DNA of 62,769 bases from Gemmatimonadota bacterium (lineage in GTDB: Bacteria > Latescibacterota > UBA2968): NCBI GenBank assembly GCA_026706845.1, contig JAPOXY010000020.1, forward strand, positions 1-62,769, read 5' to 3'. Within the stretch, counting starts at the first letter, position 1; every line of letters starts with the position of its first letter. Shown here in pieces: positions 52,214-59,581 of the stretch. The translations under genes were made by a program, and so were the position numbers. The notes under the pieces are model-generated. The model had not been told where the DNA came from. It did not search any database and saw nothing but the letters and a program-made list of their open reading frames with translations.

Positions 52214-53956
52214 CTACTTTGCCAACGGTCCCGTGGGCGCTTCTTTGCTGTAGAGCGCGCTTCCCCGCTCGTAGGATACCGCTACCTGTCCATTTTCTAC
52301 CTGTAAACGGGGTACATTATTTGTGCCCACATCCCGGTCCGGTCCTCTCATTACGGCGATTTGTGCATCGGTCATGCCCGCTATCAGGTCGCCCCATCGG
52401 CTTTCTGGATGCACCATGTCGCCTCCGCTGCGGTGGAAGTTCCGGGATGTGTATTTGATCAGGATGCCCCGTCTCGAGACCGGGTTCTTCCAGGCGAGAG
52501 CACCGTGGGTCGTCGCCCCATCCCCAAAAAAGAGCACGTCGCCCGCCTTCATCACTGGCTGCACCACAAGCCCCATATCGTCGTCGCAGGTGCGGATGCC
52601 CGGCGGCATGGGATAAAACGCTTTGTGGCTGCCCGGTACGCAGGCGAATCCGCCCAGACCGGGTTCCACGTCTCGCAGCTGCCAGGCCACGGTTACTGCT
52701 TGATCGTAACTGCGCCCGTTTTGAAACACATAGCCCATCGGTGGATAGAGGGGTTCGTTGTTGCTGTGTAGCGAGTGTCCGCTGCCGCCCAGGACCGAGC
52801 AGAATGCCGTGGCGCCTCCGCACCGCCCCCCGCTGGCGCCCATCCAGTTCAAGCGATGCTCGACCACTGGGTGTGCAATCATTTGCCGGAATGGGTCGCT
52901 ATACGGTTCTGGCAATTCGAGCAATCCAGAGAGGAGAGGTCGCCCTGTGCCAGCCAGGCTTTTCGATCCTCGCGCGAGTTCTTCGCCTACTACGATGCGA
53001 TCTTCAAATTTATCGATGGTTTCGTTGGCCGCTGCCAGCCATTCTTCGTCCATTACGCCGCGGAGTACCAGATATCCGTTCAAGTCCCAGAAATAGAATT
53101 CTTTGTAATCAATCCCCGAGTCCGGGTCCAGTTTGTAGATCGATGGATGAAATACCTCGCGCGATTCGTCCATCTTTACCGTCTTTCCATCCGTGACAAT
53201 GGTCGGGGGAGGTGTCGTGGATTTGTAACCGGGCTTGTAAAGCGATGCACGCTGTTCTTCACTTAAAGCGTCGTGCCATTCCGGGTGCGGTTCTTCCTCT
53301 GTCTGTGGGCCTGTTCCTGCAGATCGGATCACGCCCCTGCCCACGTATTCATAAGATAGCAGTCGCTGCTGTCCATCTCCCTGCCACGGGCGCATTCCCT
53401 GTAATGAGGATAGTGCTACTATCAGGAGATCACCCGACTTCAGAACGGGCTGGTATGTCAGGCCCATGTCGTCTTCGCCCGTGGTTATGTCTTCTGGCGA
53501 TGCCACATTACTTTTGTGCGAGCAGGGCAGGAGTACGAAACCGCCATCCTCCTCGTTCACGTCTTCCAGTGCCCAGATTACGCGCACGCCTTCGCAATAA
53601 CGCCGGTCGTTCTGGTGGTAATACGCAATGCCCGGCATTCTCGGTTCGTTGCCGCCTGTTAGTGGTGCTGTGGTATCGCAGGTCTCATCGCACAAGATTT
53701 CGGGTTCCCGGTCCAGGCGGAAGCCTATTCCTACAATTTGATTGAGATACCACACCAGGTGCGGATGGACGAGCAGTTCCCGGAATGGTTCTTTCAATTC
53801 GCCTTCCCATCCCAGCATGCCCGATAGTTGACCGGCTTTGTCGATGGTCTGGTTCAGTTGCGCGACTTCGCCGCGGTTCAATACGCCCGGTACATGAAGG
53901 TAGCCAGCTATATCAAAACAGTAATTCTCTTCGTTGCTCATGAGTTCTTGATCCAT
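52214..53956 (-). CDS. tandem phytanoyl-CoA dioxygenase-like protein with degenerate iron sites
   Basis: 580 residues, SD GGGGGAGG. Two consecutive PhyH-type double-stranded beta-helix domains (about 10-215 and 285-510). Canonical members bind iron with HxD and a distal His. Domain 1 has H114-Q-N116 and SLQG where the distal His should be, so it is probably inactive. Domain 2 has H397-S-N399 (HxN), keeps the distal H484 in TTHG and Arg495/496 for 2-oxoglutarate. Both contain the conserved (C/G)SHK loop. No signal peptide, so probably cytoplasmic. It may be a sensor or an oxygenase with altered chemistry. A 111-base AT-rich gap separates it from the lyase-like gene upstream. Confidence 0.82.
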   Translation of the reverse strand: MDQELMSNEENYCFDIAGYLHVPGVLNRGEVAQLNQTIDKAGQLSGMLGWEGELKEPFRELLVHPHLVWYLNQIVGIGFRLDREPEILCDETCDTTAPLTGGNEPRMPGIAYYHQNDRRYCEGVRVIWALEDVNEEDGGFVLLPCSHKSNVASPEDITTGEDDMGLTYQPVLKSGDLLIVALSSLQGMRPWQGDGQQRLLSYEYVGRGVIRSAGTGPQTEEEPHPEWHDALSEEQRASLYKPGYKSTTPPPTIVTDGKTVKMDESREVFHPSIYKLDPDSGIDYKEFYFWDLNGYLVLRGVMDEEWLAAANETIDKFEDRIVVGEELARGSKSLAGTGRPLLSGLLELPEPYSDPFRQMIAHPVVEHRLNWMGASGGRCGGATAFCSVLGGSGHSLHSNNEPLYPPMGYVFQNGRSYDQAVTVAWQLRDVEPGLGGFACVPGSHKAFYPMPPGIRTCDDDMGLVVQPVMKAGDVLFFGDGATTHGALAWKNPVSRRGILIKYTSRNFHRSGGDMVHPESRWGDLIAGMTDAQIAVMRGPDRDVGTNNVPRLQVENGQVAVSYERGSALYSKEAPTGPLAK

Positions 53957-54067: not shown

Positions 54068-55129
54068 CTAATCTGGCACTTCGACGACGTAAATCTGGCT
54101 GCTACCGGTTTGATCCGATGTGTAGATGACCCGTTTTCCATCGGGTCTGAACGATGGGTGCGGGTGAGACCACTGGGGTCCATAGGTATCGGCCTGGACT
54201 TTGTCGTCGTCCGCGGGCACTGTTTCGGCCCACTGCGTTCCTCCATTGGAACTGCGGGGGTAACACAGGGTTTTGTGTTCACCTGTTTCTGGATTGATCA
54301 ATTGTAGCCCGATGTCTGGACATGTGGTGTCGCATACAATGCGCGATCCATCTGGGCTGGGCGATGGATGCCAGGTGTTGAATTCGGCGATTTTTCGATC
54401 TTTGTCTTCACCCACCCGAATGCCCCGCAACGCATAGGGCCAGTGTACGAAGATGACTTCGTCGGTGTGCCCCAGGAATGTTTCGTGGGTAATCCACACG
54501 GTCTTGTCGTGTTTGAATAGGGGGCGTTCGTTGCTCCCATCGATTCGCACTTCCCACATTCGCTGATTGATATCGCTGGAATACAGGATGAGGTCCGGAT
54601 CAGTCGGGCAAACCTGCACATGGCCCACAGCGCGAGGGGGTTCGCGGACGATCCGGTGTCCCGATCCGTCTGTGTTCACCGAGACTACCGCCGAATGCCC
54701 GTTGTGTTGCAAGGGGGTTACCAGCCGTTCTCCGTCTGCCGAGAGGCTGCATCCACCCACGCGGCTTTCGCCAAAATCGGCCAGGATGGATTCTTCCAGT
54801 GTCTCGATATTCACGGCTCGAACCTGTCCGCCTGTGTTGTAAAATACCCGGTGTCCGTCTTTGGCAGGACAGGCGGCAAATCCACCGAATCCCTCCACGT
54901 CGGTTAATTGCGTCATTTCCCCGCTGTTCTCATCCATTTTGAAGAGGTTGGGGTGTCCAGAGCGATATGAGGTGAATACAATGGTTTTTCCATCCGGCAT
55001 CCAGGATGGATTTGAAAAGTACAGGTTGTGGCTGATTGCGGGGTGGTCCGTCATTTGTCGGATCGGCGCGCCCGTTTTTTTGTCTTTTAATGCTTTTACT
55101 TCCGAAGAATACGTCTGTCCTTTTGCCAT
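54068..55129 (-). CDS. oligogalacturonate-lyase-like beta-propeller (PL22-related)
   Basis: 353 residues from the ATG at 55129 (GGAGG SD; an ATG at 55144 overlaps that SD). TolB/WD40-like blades with NPSWMPDGKTIVFTSYRSG and PSFRPDGKRVIYTSDQTG. The family metal site is recognisable: Gln319, His322 and His324 in GPQWSHPHPSF, with His254 in WHPSPSPDG and His215 in ITHETF as further candidates. Oligogalacturonide lyases of PL22 cleave pectin disaccharides using manganese; environmental homologues are often of unknown specificity. No signal peptide. Starts about 19 bases after the Gfo/Idh stop, in the PhyH cluster. Confidence 0.75.
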   Translation of the reverse strand: MAKGQTYSSEVKALKDKKTGAPIRQMTDHPAISHNLYFSNPSWMPDGKTIVFTSYRSGHPNLFKMDENSGEMTQLTDVEGFGGFAACPAKDGHRVFYNTGGQVRAVNIETLEESILADFGESRVGGCSLSADGERLVTPLQHNGHSAVVSVNTDGSGHRIVREPPRAVGHVQVCPTDPDLILYSSDINQRMWEVRIDGSNERPLFKHDKTVWITHETFLGHTDEVIFVHWPYALRGIRVGEDKDRKIAEFNTWHPSPSPDGSRIVCDTTCPDIGLQLINPETGEHKTLCYPRSSNGGTQWAETVPADDDKVQADTYGPQWSHPHPSFRPDGKRVIYTSDQTGSSQIYVVEVPD

Positions 55130-55147
55130 GTCTGATGCCTCCATTGG

Positions 55148-56347
55148 TCATCGCTTTGGGAAGAATACATCCACACACGCTTCCACATCAAATGGGTCAC
55201 ATCCATAATTCCGTTTAAATTTTTCGAGGTGTTCTATTTCGTGTATTGTCGGTTCTTTCAATGGCAGATCGACCGGTTTTCGCCCTATGCGTCCGGATTC
55301 TTCTACTGCGACCTGGACTTCGATATCCCGTCGCGCTCTTTGCGCGTCATAGCGCGTGGGCAGGCCTTCCCGAACCGCTCGGGCAATGCTGTCCATTTCT
55401 TCTACAATCGCCAGTCTTCCCGGCGATGTTTTGTATTGGGGCCAGGGATTTTCCCATATCAGCGGGGGATCGGTTTCGATTACCATTCGTTCCAGTATCT
55501 GTACCCCGTCTTTTTCTCGGGTTTCCGTGTGGATGGGATAGGCGGTGGCTCGTCCTCCGCTCAATCGCTGTGCTTGTGTGGTGATATGTATTTCATTTTC
55601 TACAATTGTTCCGGTTGTGCCATCCACCTGGAATAATGTCTGGCTTTTTCGCCCGAGCGCCCGACCGTGATACATCGAGGAGTAGGACATTATCGCCAGT
55701 GCGCCGTTTTCAAACTCGACGAGGTCCATTGTCCAGTGTTCGGTGGTGAATTGCCGAATTTCACTCACATTCACGCGTGGGATTGGCGAATCCATCACCA
55801 ATCCCGTTACTCGAATGGGCGCCGCATCGCCTACCATCATCCGCACACTGCTGACGATGTGATAGCCGCCGGTTTGAAATAGGGCAAAGACCCGCAGTAC
55901 GTCTCCAATGGCTCCGGCGTCGATGGCCTGTCGTTTGATCTGGTGAAGGGGGTCTCGGCAATATTGCTCTGCTATTTCGAGTTTTACGCCGTTGCGTGCT
56001 ACCGCGTTGATCAATACATCTGCGGTTTGCAGGGTGGGTGAAATGGGGGTTTCTACGATCAGGTTTACGCCGTGTTCAGCCAGATATGCACCGATGGCGT
56101 GGTGTGAGTCGGCCGGTGTGCTTATTGCCGCAATGTCCAGTTTTTCATGTGCGACCAGGTCCTGTATCCGAGAATATGCGGGTACACCGTATTCGGCGCC
56201 TATTTTTCGCGCTTTTTCCCCATCTACATCGCATACTGCGACGAGTTCGAATACATCCGACATCAACAAGATTGCGGGGAGTCGCACCCCCAGCCCACGG
56301 CCACCGCAGCCCACGAGGGCGATTCCCAATTTTTCTTTTGCGGCCAT
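55148..56347 (-). CDS. Gfo/Idh/MocA family protein with altered EKP motif
   Basis: 399 residues. The NAD-binding GxGxxG is present (LVGCGGRGLG at 11-20) and the C-terminal domain is recognisable (VELGE-like strand, WTMDLVEFENGALAIMSYSS). The usual Glu-Lys-Pro is Glu99-Thr100-Pro101, so the catalytic lysine is missing at its normal place; it may be a non-dehydrogenase, use another residue, or belong to a subfamily with different chemistry. Sits between a PhyH gene and the lyase-like propeller, with short gaps on both sides. Confidence 0.82.
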   Translation of the reverse strand: MAAKEKLGIALVGCGGRGLGVRLPAILLMSDVFELVAVCDVDGEKARKIGAEYGVPAYSRIQDLVAHEKLDIAAISTPADSHHAIGAYLAEHGVNLIVETPISPTLQTADVLINAVARNGVKLEIAEQYCRDPLHQIKRQAIDAGAIGDVLRVFALFQTGGYHIVSSVRMMVGDAAPIRVTGLVMDSPIPRVNVSEIRQFTTEHWTMDLVEFENGALAIMSYSSMYHGRALGRKSQTLFQVDGTTGTIVENEIHITTQAQRLSGGRATAYPIHTETREKDGVQILERMVIETDPPLIWENPWPQYKTSPGRLAIVEEMDSIARAVREGLPTRYDAQRARRDIEVQVAVEESGRIGRKPVDLPLKEPTIHEIEHLEKFKRNYGCDPFDVEACVDVFFPKR

Positions 56348-56392: not shown

Positions 56393-57241
56393 CTACGGCG
56401 GTAGTCGCGGTGGTATTGGTTGGATAATTTTTCTCTGTTCGGAGGTCAATCGCGCCAGTAATCCGTCCGATGGGACGTAGTGAAACCGCGTGCGGATGAA
56501 TCGCGGGGAATACCGATAGACTACGGTGCGGCGATACCCTTTGTTCGTGCGTTCGGCTGATCCATGTGCGACCGAATCTGTGAAAAATAACGCGTCGCCC
56601 GCTTTCATGTACATTTCTTTCATACCTACAGCAGTTCCAGCGGGTTCTGTGCCAGAACTCACCACGCCCTTGTCATCTACAAGCAATTTGGGATGTATTT
56701 CTGTGCTTTTATGGCTGCCGGGTACGAGGACTGTTGGTCCATCTCCCGGTTCTATATCCGTCAATGCGACCAGTACGTTGATCTGGCCCACCATCCACGC
56801 GCCTGTGTTGTGTTGCCGAAAGGTGAAATAGCACCGGGGCGCGTGACCGCCACTGTGGATATAGATAAATCCGCCGGGTCCGCGTACGGTTAAAAAATTT
56901 TCGTGGATCGAGATGCCGTTTACTTCGTCGTTGATGTAGCGTTTGGCCAGGTCAATCCAGGATGGATGATCAATTAATCGCTCGAATACCGGTCCAGCTT
57001 CGATGATGTTCTGAAAGTTCAATCCGTCTTTTTCGCGGTAGGTATGCGTTTCCACATGGCCGATCCACGCACCCGAATCATCACTCGTACCCCGACGCTT
57101 TTTGCCATGTACGTATTCCCAATGGTCATCTACCCATTGGTTCATCTCCTGTACGTCCTTTTTCGACACCGCGCTTTTTAGATGCAGATAGCCGTGCAAG
57201 TCGAATAAATAATCCTGTAAATGCTGGTCCGAATTATCCAT
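56393..57241 (-). CDS. phytanoyl-CoA dioxygenase family protein with HxG motif
   Basis: 282 residues from the ATG at 57241 (AAAGG SD), which overlaps the upstream PhyH stop by eight bases. PhyH fold features: FDLHGYLHLKSA at the N-terminus, VPGSHKSTEIHPK, distal His226 in SVAHGSAERT and Arg237/238 for 2-oxoglutarate. At the position of the HxD iron ligands it reads H129-S-G131 (FIYIHSGGHAPR). In known non-heme iron halogenases (SyrB2, BesD, WelO5) the Asp is replaced by Ala or Gly to make room for chloride, so a halogenase-like or non-catalytic role is possible. Neighbour of a canonical PhyH enzyme. Confidence 0.82.
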   Translation of the reverse strand: MDNSDQHLQDYLFDLHGYLHLKSAVSKKDVQEMNQWVDDHWEYVHGKKRRGTSDDSGAWIGHVETHTYREKDGLNFQNIIEAGPVFERLIDHPSWIDLAKRYINDEVNGISIHENFLTVRGPGGFIYIHSGGHAPRCYFTFRQHNTGAWMVGQINVLVALTDIEPGDGPTVLVPGSHKSTEIHPKLLVDDKGVVSSGTEPAGTAVGMKEMYMKAGDALFFTDSVAHGSAERTNKGYRRTVVYRYSPRFIRTRFHYVPSDGLLARLTSEQRKIIQPIPPRLPP

Positions 57242-58052
57242 AAGCACCTTTCTCATGCCGGCCCAATAACCGCTGCATTCGCGCGTCGGCTCCTGCCCAG
57301 ACGTATTCTGGCATTCGATAGTCGATAAATGGGTATAATCGCTGTGCGATGATGCGCTGGCTGTACACGACTGAGCCTACATAGCGGACCTGGTCGGATT
57401 TGTTTTGCGATCCCCGATGCCACACTTGATTGTGGAACATGCACAGATCTCCCGGGTCGGCAATCATGGATACGGGTCCCTGTCCATCGAACTCGGGGGC
57501 TTCCGTTTTGTCCGGTCTCCTGCCCGCGTAATGGCTGCCGGGGACCACTTCTGTGACGCCGTATTCGATGGCGTCGGCCCGGCTCAGGGGGAATAAGACG
57601 TTCAATACAAAGCACGGTAACGGGATTTTTTTATTGTGCTTGGATATATCATCGGGCAATGGGAAAATTATGCGGTCGTCCAGATGCCATCCTCCGCCCT
57701 GACCGGGTTCATATCGCAGGGCATTTTGCGACATCATGTGGCAATCATCACCCAGGATTGCCTCTGCCAGGCTCACAAATGGCTCCCGCGCGATCAGGTC
57801 CCGGAAGTTGATGTCATATTCAAACATCCGCATCATACTGATGCCCCGAATATGGTCTCCTTCGGGTTCGTGCATTTTGGGGTCCTGATATTTTCGCTCC
57901 ATTGTTTCCCGAAGTGTCAGTACTTCTTTTTCGGTTAGTACGTCTTTTAAGAACAAATATCCATCCCGCTGAAATTGCGCGACCAAGTCCTGGATTTTGT
58001 CCGCGCCATAAGGTTTGGCGTTTTTGTCGATTACGCTGTTTGTGGTGTACAT
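57234..58052 (-). CDS. phytanoyl-CoA dioxygenase family oxygenase, canonical iron site
   Basis: 272 residues. The iron and cosubstrate ligands are complete: H123-L-D125 in GGWHLDDRI, His212 in VWHRGSQNKS and Arg223 in QVRYVG. FQRDGYLFLKDVLTEKEV is the typical N-terminal helix-strand. It would be an Fe(II)/2-oxoglutarate hydroxylase acting in the cytoplasm; substrate unknown (the family acts on acyl-CoAs, but also on ectoine, terpenes, antibiotics and others). Starts 10 bases after the Nramp-like stop with GTGAG, and overlaps the HxG PhyH gene by eight bases. Confidence 0.87.
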   Translation of the reverse strand: MYTTNSVIDKNAKPYGADKIQDLVAQFQRDGYLFLKDVLTEKEVLTLRETMERKYQDPKMHEPEGDHIRGISMMRMFEYDINFRDLIAREPFVSLAEAILGDDCHMMSQNALRYEPGQGGGWHLDDRIIFPLPDDISKHNKKIPLPCFVLNVLFPLSRADAIEYGVTEVVPGSHYAGRRPDKTEAPEFDGQGPVSMIADPGDLCMFHNQVWHRGSQNKSDQVRYVGSVVYSQRIIAQRLYPFIDYRMPEYVWAGADARMQRLLGRHEKGAYG

Positions 58053-58062
58053 CGTTATCTCA

Positions 58063-59526
58063 CTATTTCATTAAGCCCAATATATCTTCATATACGGCAA
58101 GGCCACCAAAATAGGTGAAGGCGAGGCCAGAGATTATATTGAGCGCGACGAGGAACCAGCCCATTTGCAATGGGGGTGGAACGAATTTGCGGTCGATATA
58201 GATCATCGCAAAGCACCAGGGTCCAGCGAGAAGTACCCCGGTGATGTGCAGGGGGATTGTCATAATCGAAATTGGGTTCCAGCCTATGCCATTCGGGTCT
58301 TGCGTGGCTGTCCACCAGGCGTATAGTACCAGTGCGCCACCCGCAATAGCGGTGTATCCCAGTGTCCATTTTCGCACGTCGTTCAATGCCAGATTGTGCC
58401 ATTTGGGGGTTATTGCGCGTATGCTTTCATGCGCGGTGCGGACGTATAATTCATATGCGCCGTACACGGTGCCAAAAATTGCGAAGAATACGCCGAGCTT
58501 GTACAATCCCGAGAGAAATGTCTTGACGCCTGCGCTTTCGTGCAATGCGGTTAAAAATACGACCTGGTGATTGTAGAGGTCCATGCCGGACGGTACGATT
58601 TCTCGCGGATGCAACAGGGCAGCACCTAAAATTAAAAAGGCCGCTGTGAATAATAATACACTGGCAAATGATACGAGTGTATCGACCAGCGGTGCTTTTA
58701 ACCACGCTTTTCCCAATTCGAGGTTTTCTGGGGATTCTGAGATTGTTTCCTCTCCATTGCTGCGACGACCGATCATTCCCCACACCTTTTCGCGCAGCAT
58801 GCCCACATATCCCACATAGTCCTGTACTCCACCGCCGATTACGCCCATGTACGCGACCATTTCGACGATCAATGTTCGGTCTGCAAATAGCGGATTGCGC
58901 GATACCCATTCTGGATATACCGGGAATGTGGGTACTACTGCGCCCATTAGCGCGGCGACCCAATCGGGGTTTGCCGCTACTGTCGCGATTAACATGACCA
59001 GCAACATCAATCCCACGAGTGAGGTTTGCGCTTTTTCCAACAGGCCATAGCTCTGTTTCAGAGTTAATGCTATCAAAAATGCGATAAATATGAGGGCGAT
59101 CAAATGCGGATACCGCGCCGGGTCGTCAAATAATATCCACGACGAGATCGTGCCGAGCATGATGGGCAGGCTGGATAAATAAAATGGGAAGCTCACGACC
59201 ATTACCACGCCTACAACTGCCGGGAATAATCCCCTCGGTCCGGGGAGTTGCGCCCAGCGCTCCATGGGGTGCTCGCCGGTTAGTGTCATATATCGCGCTG
59301 CGGAATACACTTGAACGACTTTTGTGATGCAAAACAGGCTGAATGCCCAGAACATGGCGTAGCCAAAGATCGCTCCGCTGCGCGATGCCCACACGGTTTC
59401 TCCACTGCCGATGGTTACCGATGCGATGATCGCGCCTGGTCCAAAGAATTTTAAGAAGTCGCCGATTTTCCGCGAGCGCAATGCTGCCGCCAGTTCCGGA
59501 AATTCTAATTTTTTTGCTTCTGCCAT
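58063..59526 (-). CDS. Nramp-like transporter lacking canonical metal motifs
   Basis: 487 residues from the ATG at 59526 (AGGAG SD). About eleven hydrophobic helices with Nramp topology (FGPGAIIASVTIGSGETVWA in TM1). Canonical metal-transporting Nramps have DPGN in TM1 and MPH in TM6; here they read GSGE (40-43) and GVIGGGVQDYVGYVGM. The substrate is therefore unlikely to be Mn/Fe through the normal site; it could be another ion or an organic solute. Lies in the operon between the cyclase-family gene and the PhyH pair, so it is a candidate importer for their substrate. Confidence 0.8.
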   Translation of the reverse strand: MAEAKKLEFPELAAALRSRKIGDFLKFFGPGAIIASVTIGSGETVWASRSGAIFGYAMFWAFSLFCITKVVQVYSAARYMTLTGEHPMERWAQLPGPRGLFPAVVGVVMVVSFPFYLSSLPIMLGTISSWILFDDPARYPHLIALIFIAFLIALTLKQSYGLLEKAQTSLVGLMLLVMLIATVAANPDWVAALMGAVVPTFPVYPEWVSRNPLFADRTLIVEMVAYMGVIGGGVQDYVGYVGMLREKVWGMIGRRSNGEETISESPENLELGKAWLKAPLVDTLVSFASVLLFTAAFLILGAALLHPREIVPSGMDLYNHQVVFLTALHESAGVKTFLSGLYKLGVFFAIFGTVYGAYELYVRTAHESIRAITPKWHNLALNDVRKWTLGYTAIAGGALVLYAWWTATQDPNGIGWNPISIMTIPLHITGVLLAGPWCFAMIYIDRKFVPPPLQMGWFLVALNIISGLAFTYFGGLAVYEDILGLMK

Positions 59527-59542
59527 GATTTCTCCTATTGAA

Positions 59543-59581
59543 AATCCCCAGTCCAACCGATCTTACGGAGGACTGGGGATT
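59543..59581 (-). other. stem-loop between cyclase and Nramp-like genes
   Basis: AATCCCCAGTCC (59543-59554) pairs perfectly over 12 bases with GGACTGGGGATT (59570-59581), with a 15-base loop. On the minus strand only a short TTTTC follows, then the SD of the transporter gene. Partial terminator, attenuator or RNA-stabilising element. Confidence 0.6.

Follow-up and report, generated by a model that had tools for sequence, protein, structure and literature searches.

The HxG and HxA motifs are widely used for mining genomes for radical halogenases. The locus described here raises the question of whether a PhyH protein with Gly in place of the usual iron-binding Asp should be read in that way. 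The gene lies in a stretch of 62,769 nucleotides (the window; contig JAPOXY010000020.1 of assembly GCA_026706845.1, Latescibacterota in the GTDB lineage). A preliminary description had proposed an Asp-less site with the distal His intact and a possible halogenase or azide/nitrate-type transferase, or equally a non-catalytic homologue. Our findings uphold the site, lend no support to the halogenase or transferase step, and point toward what is probably a hydroxylase-type enzyme. The gene and its active-site residues are the following:

56393–57241, minus strand: target gene, 282-aa PhyH-fold two-histidine oxygenase (HxG), assigned from Pfam PhyH, orthologues and an AF2 model
56855–56857, minus strand: H129, proximal Fe histidine, 100% in 91 members
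56849–56851, minus strand: G131, at the position normally held by the Asp ligand, Gly in 100% of 91 members and G/A/S/N/L/V in the wider clade
56576–56578, minus strand: D222, acidic residue four positions ahead of H226, proposed to be a second-sphere carboxylate like D721 of AspH, 100% in 91 members
56564–56566, minus strand: H226, distal Fe histidine, 100% in 91 members
56528–56533, minus strand: R237-R238, Arg of 2-oxoglutarate-binding type (role by homology), 11 residues past H226, 100% and 99% in 91 members

In the profile search the target matches Pfam PhyH (PF05721) at 6.1e-19, with 69.6 bits against a cut-off of 22. The open frame at 56393–57256 on the minus strand encodes 287 aa, and a second ATG at 57241 gives 282 aa. 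The latter start, also the one chosen previously, is preferred because GAGAAAGG lies a few nucleotides 5' of it, because it shares 8 nt with the stop of the preceding PhyH gene (ATGGATAA), and because an orthologue 95% identical to the target (L031) retains the equivalent start. Residue numbers refer to this 282-aa form, and the residues were confirmed against the DNA. At the HxD slot the target reads H129-S130-G131-G132-H133; the HxD...H facial triad, typical of PhyH but not required by Pfam, is thus absent. The remaining landmarks of the preliminary description were also found in place, namely H226, R237/R238 and the VLVAL strand about 26 residues on (V156, within INVLVAL, sits 27 residues beyond H129). 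One profile alignment to PHYH put H133 in the place of the proximal histidine. This assignment was rejected in favour of H129, since the first His is constant across the wider clade, and the only universal one, whereas the second gives way to F, Y, T, A or D. E114 was likewise discarded as a replacement ligand, because other members of the family have M, A, Q, W or G there.

The Gly in the slot is a stable feature of the close subfamily. In an alignment of homologues, the check that had been suggested for this site, H129, G131, D222, H226 and R237 show no variation across 91 non-redundant members, which come from several phyla, Gly occupying the slot in 91 of 91. The dN/dS values of 0.12–0.19 against close orthologues, where estimable, indicate purifying selection on the target gene. 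G131 is therefore fixed and selected in the subfamily, and HxG, together with the invariant H129, H226 and R237, reflects neither a sequencing error nor drift. A single scan of GTDB genomes yielded 24 relatives with 59–95% identity, in MAGs of Latescibacterota, Poribacteria, Caldilineaceae and Gemmatimonadota; a same-phylum search found subfamily members in 44 of 64 genomes, and none were found in the viral collections searched.

The target belongs to a large expansion within its own genome (5.46 Mb, 96% complete), which holds at least 154 PhyH matches. The domain census covered the stretches around the matches listed, with a few further matches missing. Among these matches, 168 PhyH domains were classified: 121 are HxD...H and about 38 keep both histidines without the Asp. 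The Asp-less slots among the matches listed comprise 20 HxG, 6 HxA, 5 HxS, 3 HxN and single others. The clade of the target includes 36 own-genome domains among the same matches, 35 of them Asp-less. Confinement of the slot to Gly or Ala, as a halogenase clade would show, does not hold here: the clade has G, A, S, N, L or V at the slot, and only the closest subfamily has Gly alone. HxG does vary in the wider clade, but the distal His stays conserved there. One member of the clade (L075, contig C171) has HxD with the Glu before its distal His kept; it is possibly a reversion and a natural test case.

A second feature sets these domains apart. An acidic residue four positions before the distal His (hereafter the -4 acid) is present in 36 of 38 Asp-less domains versus 6 of 121 HxD domains among the matches listed, and in a column-by-column comparison of acid content this column shows the largest change after the HxD column itself. 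Some members carry the acid at -5, aligned via a one-residue gap. Glu is the commoner acid in the clade and the target carries Asp (D222). The covariation between slot and -4 acid gives a Fisher p of 5e-27, a value that ignores kinship and is inflated by relatedness because the acid was gained mainly once: among matched, phylogenetically independent pairs, 2 support the covariation, 0 contradict it and 3 show no difference, too few independent events for a test. The tree has about 6 slot changes between Asp and not-Asp. The association thus mostly reflects one ancestral event. The acid then persisted through repeated slot change (18 changes of residue over the tree, with every state counted) and is present in 36 of 37 clade tips, a count made without HygX, even as the former ligand position drifts among G, A, S, N, L and V. 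Outside the main clade, the domain L092:634-1411 has HxG with Asp at -4, so that this layout may have arisen independently a second time.

HygX is the nearest relative with a solved structure. Both the target profile and two paralogues from the clade retrieved it as the best PDB match, and the printed HygX alignment (YLHGGNSE...LLNEALMHGT) shows HxG with Glu four residues before the distal His. Placed in the target alignment, HygX has H, G, E and H at the four columns; the corresponding combination of a non-Asp slot and a -4 acid is given in the target by G131, D222 and H226. The AF2 model of the target, from an alignment of 34 diverse rows, has a pLDDT of 80.3 and a pTM of 0.84, with residues 130–141 below pLDDT 50; in a Foldseek comparison with the PDB, 8zyb and HygX (4xc9/4xca) lead with E about 1e-14. 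HygX falls inside the Asp-less clade (37 tips, UFBoot 100 / SH-aLRT 95) in a tree from which the slot and acid columns were removed and which had no halogenase among its tips, and its identity to the target is about 18%. It is annotated as an oxidase/hydroxylase, and the abstract of its primary paper reportedly mentions variation in metal coordination. PDB titles describe HygX with iron (4ZPI), with Ni and 2-oxoglutarate (4XCA) and with hygromycin B, and in hygromycin B biosynthesis it has been assigned to orthoester formation (PMC8234114). On these grounds, HygX shows that a member of this clade can bind metal and 2-oxoglutarate despite lacking the Asp, and its assigned reaction is orthoester formation, not halogenation.

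The gene neighbourhood adds context on function. The neighbours in the window are the following:

57234–58052, minus strand: ordinary HxD PhyH oxygenase (Pfam PhyH 6.7e-20; HLD slot), upstream neighbour with an 8-nt overlap with the target start, kept in 8 Latescibacterota-type loci
58063–59556, minus strand: Nramp-like transporter (NF037982, 82.6 bits, cut-off 50)
55148–56347, minus strand: Gfo/Idh/MocA oxidoreductase (PF01408, 1.2e-19), between the target and the two-domain PhyH gene, otherwise in L031 and L036 only
54068–55144, minus strand: PD40/oligogalacturonate-lyase-like propeller protein (PF14583, 2.4e-23)
52214–53956, minus strand: PhyH protein of two domains, the N-terminal one lacking iron ligands and the C-terminal one HxN, kept in 5 other loci

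The normal PhyH hydroxylase and the transporter that had been described beside the target are thus borne out. Latescibacterota-type loci have the HxD PhyH gene and the Nramp-like transporter, then the target, then the two-domain PhyH gene; the window locus (G000), L031 and L036 have the Gfo/Idh/MocA and propeller genes between the last two. L031 (2974–4940) and L036 have an insertion, made up of a DarT-ankyrin fusion and a gene for a NADAR-DarT1 antitoxin, that separates the HxD PhyH gene from the target orthologue. In the two-domain protein, the N-terminal domain lacks both iron histidines (LIGGNEP and ALQGMRPW in orthologues) and the C-terminal domain has HxN and, ahead of its distal His, an acid. 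Elsewhere, the target orthologue is preceded by a solute-binding protein and two ABC permeases of sugar type in Caldilineaceae and by ThuA in Poribacteria, and has Ldh_2, Rieske or SSF genes nearby on Gemmatimonadota-type contigs. Within its own genome, two HxG paralogues in tandem have a GH43 gene, two sulfatase genes and one ThuA-like gene as neighbours (C173:39000-48500, L152), and another HxG paralogue adjoins CoA-transferase and enoyl-CoA hydratase genes. No NRPS, PKS or carrier-protein genes were found among the scanned neighbours. The context looks catabolic and often sugar-related, although it is not uniform and differs between phyla.

Taking the fold, the residue pattern and its fixation, the clade shared with HygX and the gene context into account, we consider it fairly likely that the target is a two-histidine Fe(II)/2-oxoglutarate PhyH oxygenase of the HygX/AspH type, with a water-filled site, that oxidizes a C-H bond of a small substrate. 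According to this model, H129 and H226 would bind iron, R237 would anchor 2-oxoglutarate, and the site of the lost Asp would be taken by a water molecule held by D222 in the second sphere. The precedent is human AspH, in which iron is bound by H679 and H725 only, water W1 fills the Asp site, and W1 is held by D721 (H725-4; 2.9 Å from the water), the D721A variant having much reduced activity (PMC13168262, PMC6817910). The proposed likeness of D222 to D721 is one of sequence spacing, not of measured geometry. Once O2 is activated, the C-H bond of the substrate would be oxidized, either in a hydroxylation or in an oxidative cyclisation or cleavage as proposed for HygX. The substrate is probably a sugar or another metabolite of host origin that the cell imports, and the target possibly acts on sugars within a catabolic operon. 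Several points count against this reading: the -4 acid was gained mainly once and occurs as Glu in the halogenase HctB as well, HygX has Glu where the target has Asp and is distant in sequence, and the context, different between phyla, fixes no substrate. In addition, loss of the Asp alone is not harmless, since human PHYH D177A/G is inactive (PMC12816917); in FIH, the Asp-to-Gly variant retains some activity (PMC10947486).

These observations bear on the other readings as well. If the protein were an Fe/2OG halogenase or an azide/nitrate-type transferase, chloride would enter the site opened by G131, in keeping with the HxG...H arrangement, the intact distal His and Arg, and the fixation of Gly in 91 of 91 close members. 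The clade slot, however, extends to S, N, L and V, and with L, V or N there a halide on the metal would presumably find too little space; D222 would bring a negative charge near the site, and its -4 position is usually Ser or Lys in halogenases. HctB, by contrast, has Glu223 four residues before His227, and its authors give Ser or Lys for the other halogenases (PMC6218459). An acid at -4 is therefore compatible with halogenation and lowers this reading without removing it. Furthermore, AspH shares this layout and shows no halogenation, while thiocyanate, a pseudohalide, occupies another site in it (PMC13168262, PMC6817910). The SyrB2 match reaches only E = 0.74, weaker than HygX and PHYH, and the nearest solved relative is an annotated oxidase/hydroxylase instead of SyrB2. 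The neighbours look catabolic, and the scanned ones include no NRPS, PKS or carrier genes. Taken together, halogenase or transferase activity appears quite unlikely.

Another acidic residue might instead complete the triad, as had also been considered. E114 fails for lack of conservation, and D222 could serve either as a relocated or as a second-sphere carboxylate. In the relocated form, the -4 acid (Glu in most of the clade, Asp here) would bind iron directly and rebuild the 2-His-1-carboxylate triad from another strand. The persistence of the acid while the slot drifts and the prevalence of Glu would fit such a triad, but the same position in AspH is second sphere (PMC13168262) and Asp would be short for direct binding from -4 on the strand, which makes this arrangement doubtful. 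As to a PhyH homologue acting as a binding or scaffold protein, the Asp ligand is lost and dead PhyH domains do occur at the locus, as the truly ligand-less N-terminal domain of the two-domain protein indicates. Yet the full conservation of both histidines, the 2OG-type Arg and D222 in 91 members, the binding of Fe, Ni and 2OG by HygX in the same clade, and the activity of two-His and even one-His AspH leave a non-catalytic role very unlikely, and not, as had been suggested, an equal alternative.

The HygX/AspH-type reading bears on genome mining, since a whole PhyH clade, with dozens of members in one genome, is Asp-less and resembles such oxygenases. If it is true, the -4 acid would help to sort false from real halogenase hits, and loss of the third ligand would be common and stable in one of the largest known bacterial oxygenase expansions. 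Were the relocated triad true, the carboxylate would have moved to -4 and left the old position free to vary, in dozens of copies per genome in Latescibacterota-type bacteria.

Among known systems, a similar mass expansion of PhyH genes has been described in Poribacteria (Kamke et al. 2014, PMC3909097), and the relevant passages of that paper do not discuss loss of the Asp ligand. Enzymes of the PHYH, PHYHD1 and ectoine hydroxylase type share the fold, the PGSHK motif, the distal His and the Arg with the target, but retain HxD. The halogenases SyrB2, WelO5, BesD and HctB share the two-His HxA/HxG...H site; they differ in having usually Ser or Lys at -4 (Glu in HctB), a slot that is always small in those named, and a biosynthetic context. 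Human AspH has HXG...H, two His ligands and an Asp exactly four residues before the distal His, as in D222/H226, but belongs to another Pfam family (PF05118), has EGF-like domains as its substrates and includes a TPR domain. The Asp_Arg_Hydrox domain is absent from the target, in which Pfam finds PhyH only, and PF05118 was not found in its genome with a profile that matched no control genome either. HygX (PDB 4XC9, 4XCA, 4XCB, 4ZPI) acts on an aminoglycoside precursor, whereas the target locus is without an antibiotic gene cluster, and the two differ at -4 (Glu versus Asp) and share about 18% identity. They have in common the PhyH-type fold, the H-G-G-type slot, the -4 acid and the clade, and the target, a conserved Asp-less iron oxygenase on the best reading, is best grouped with HygX among the two-histidine PhyH oxygenases.
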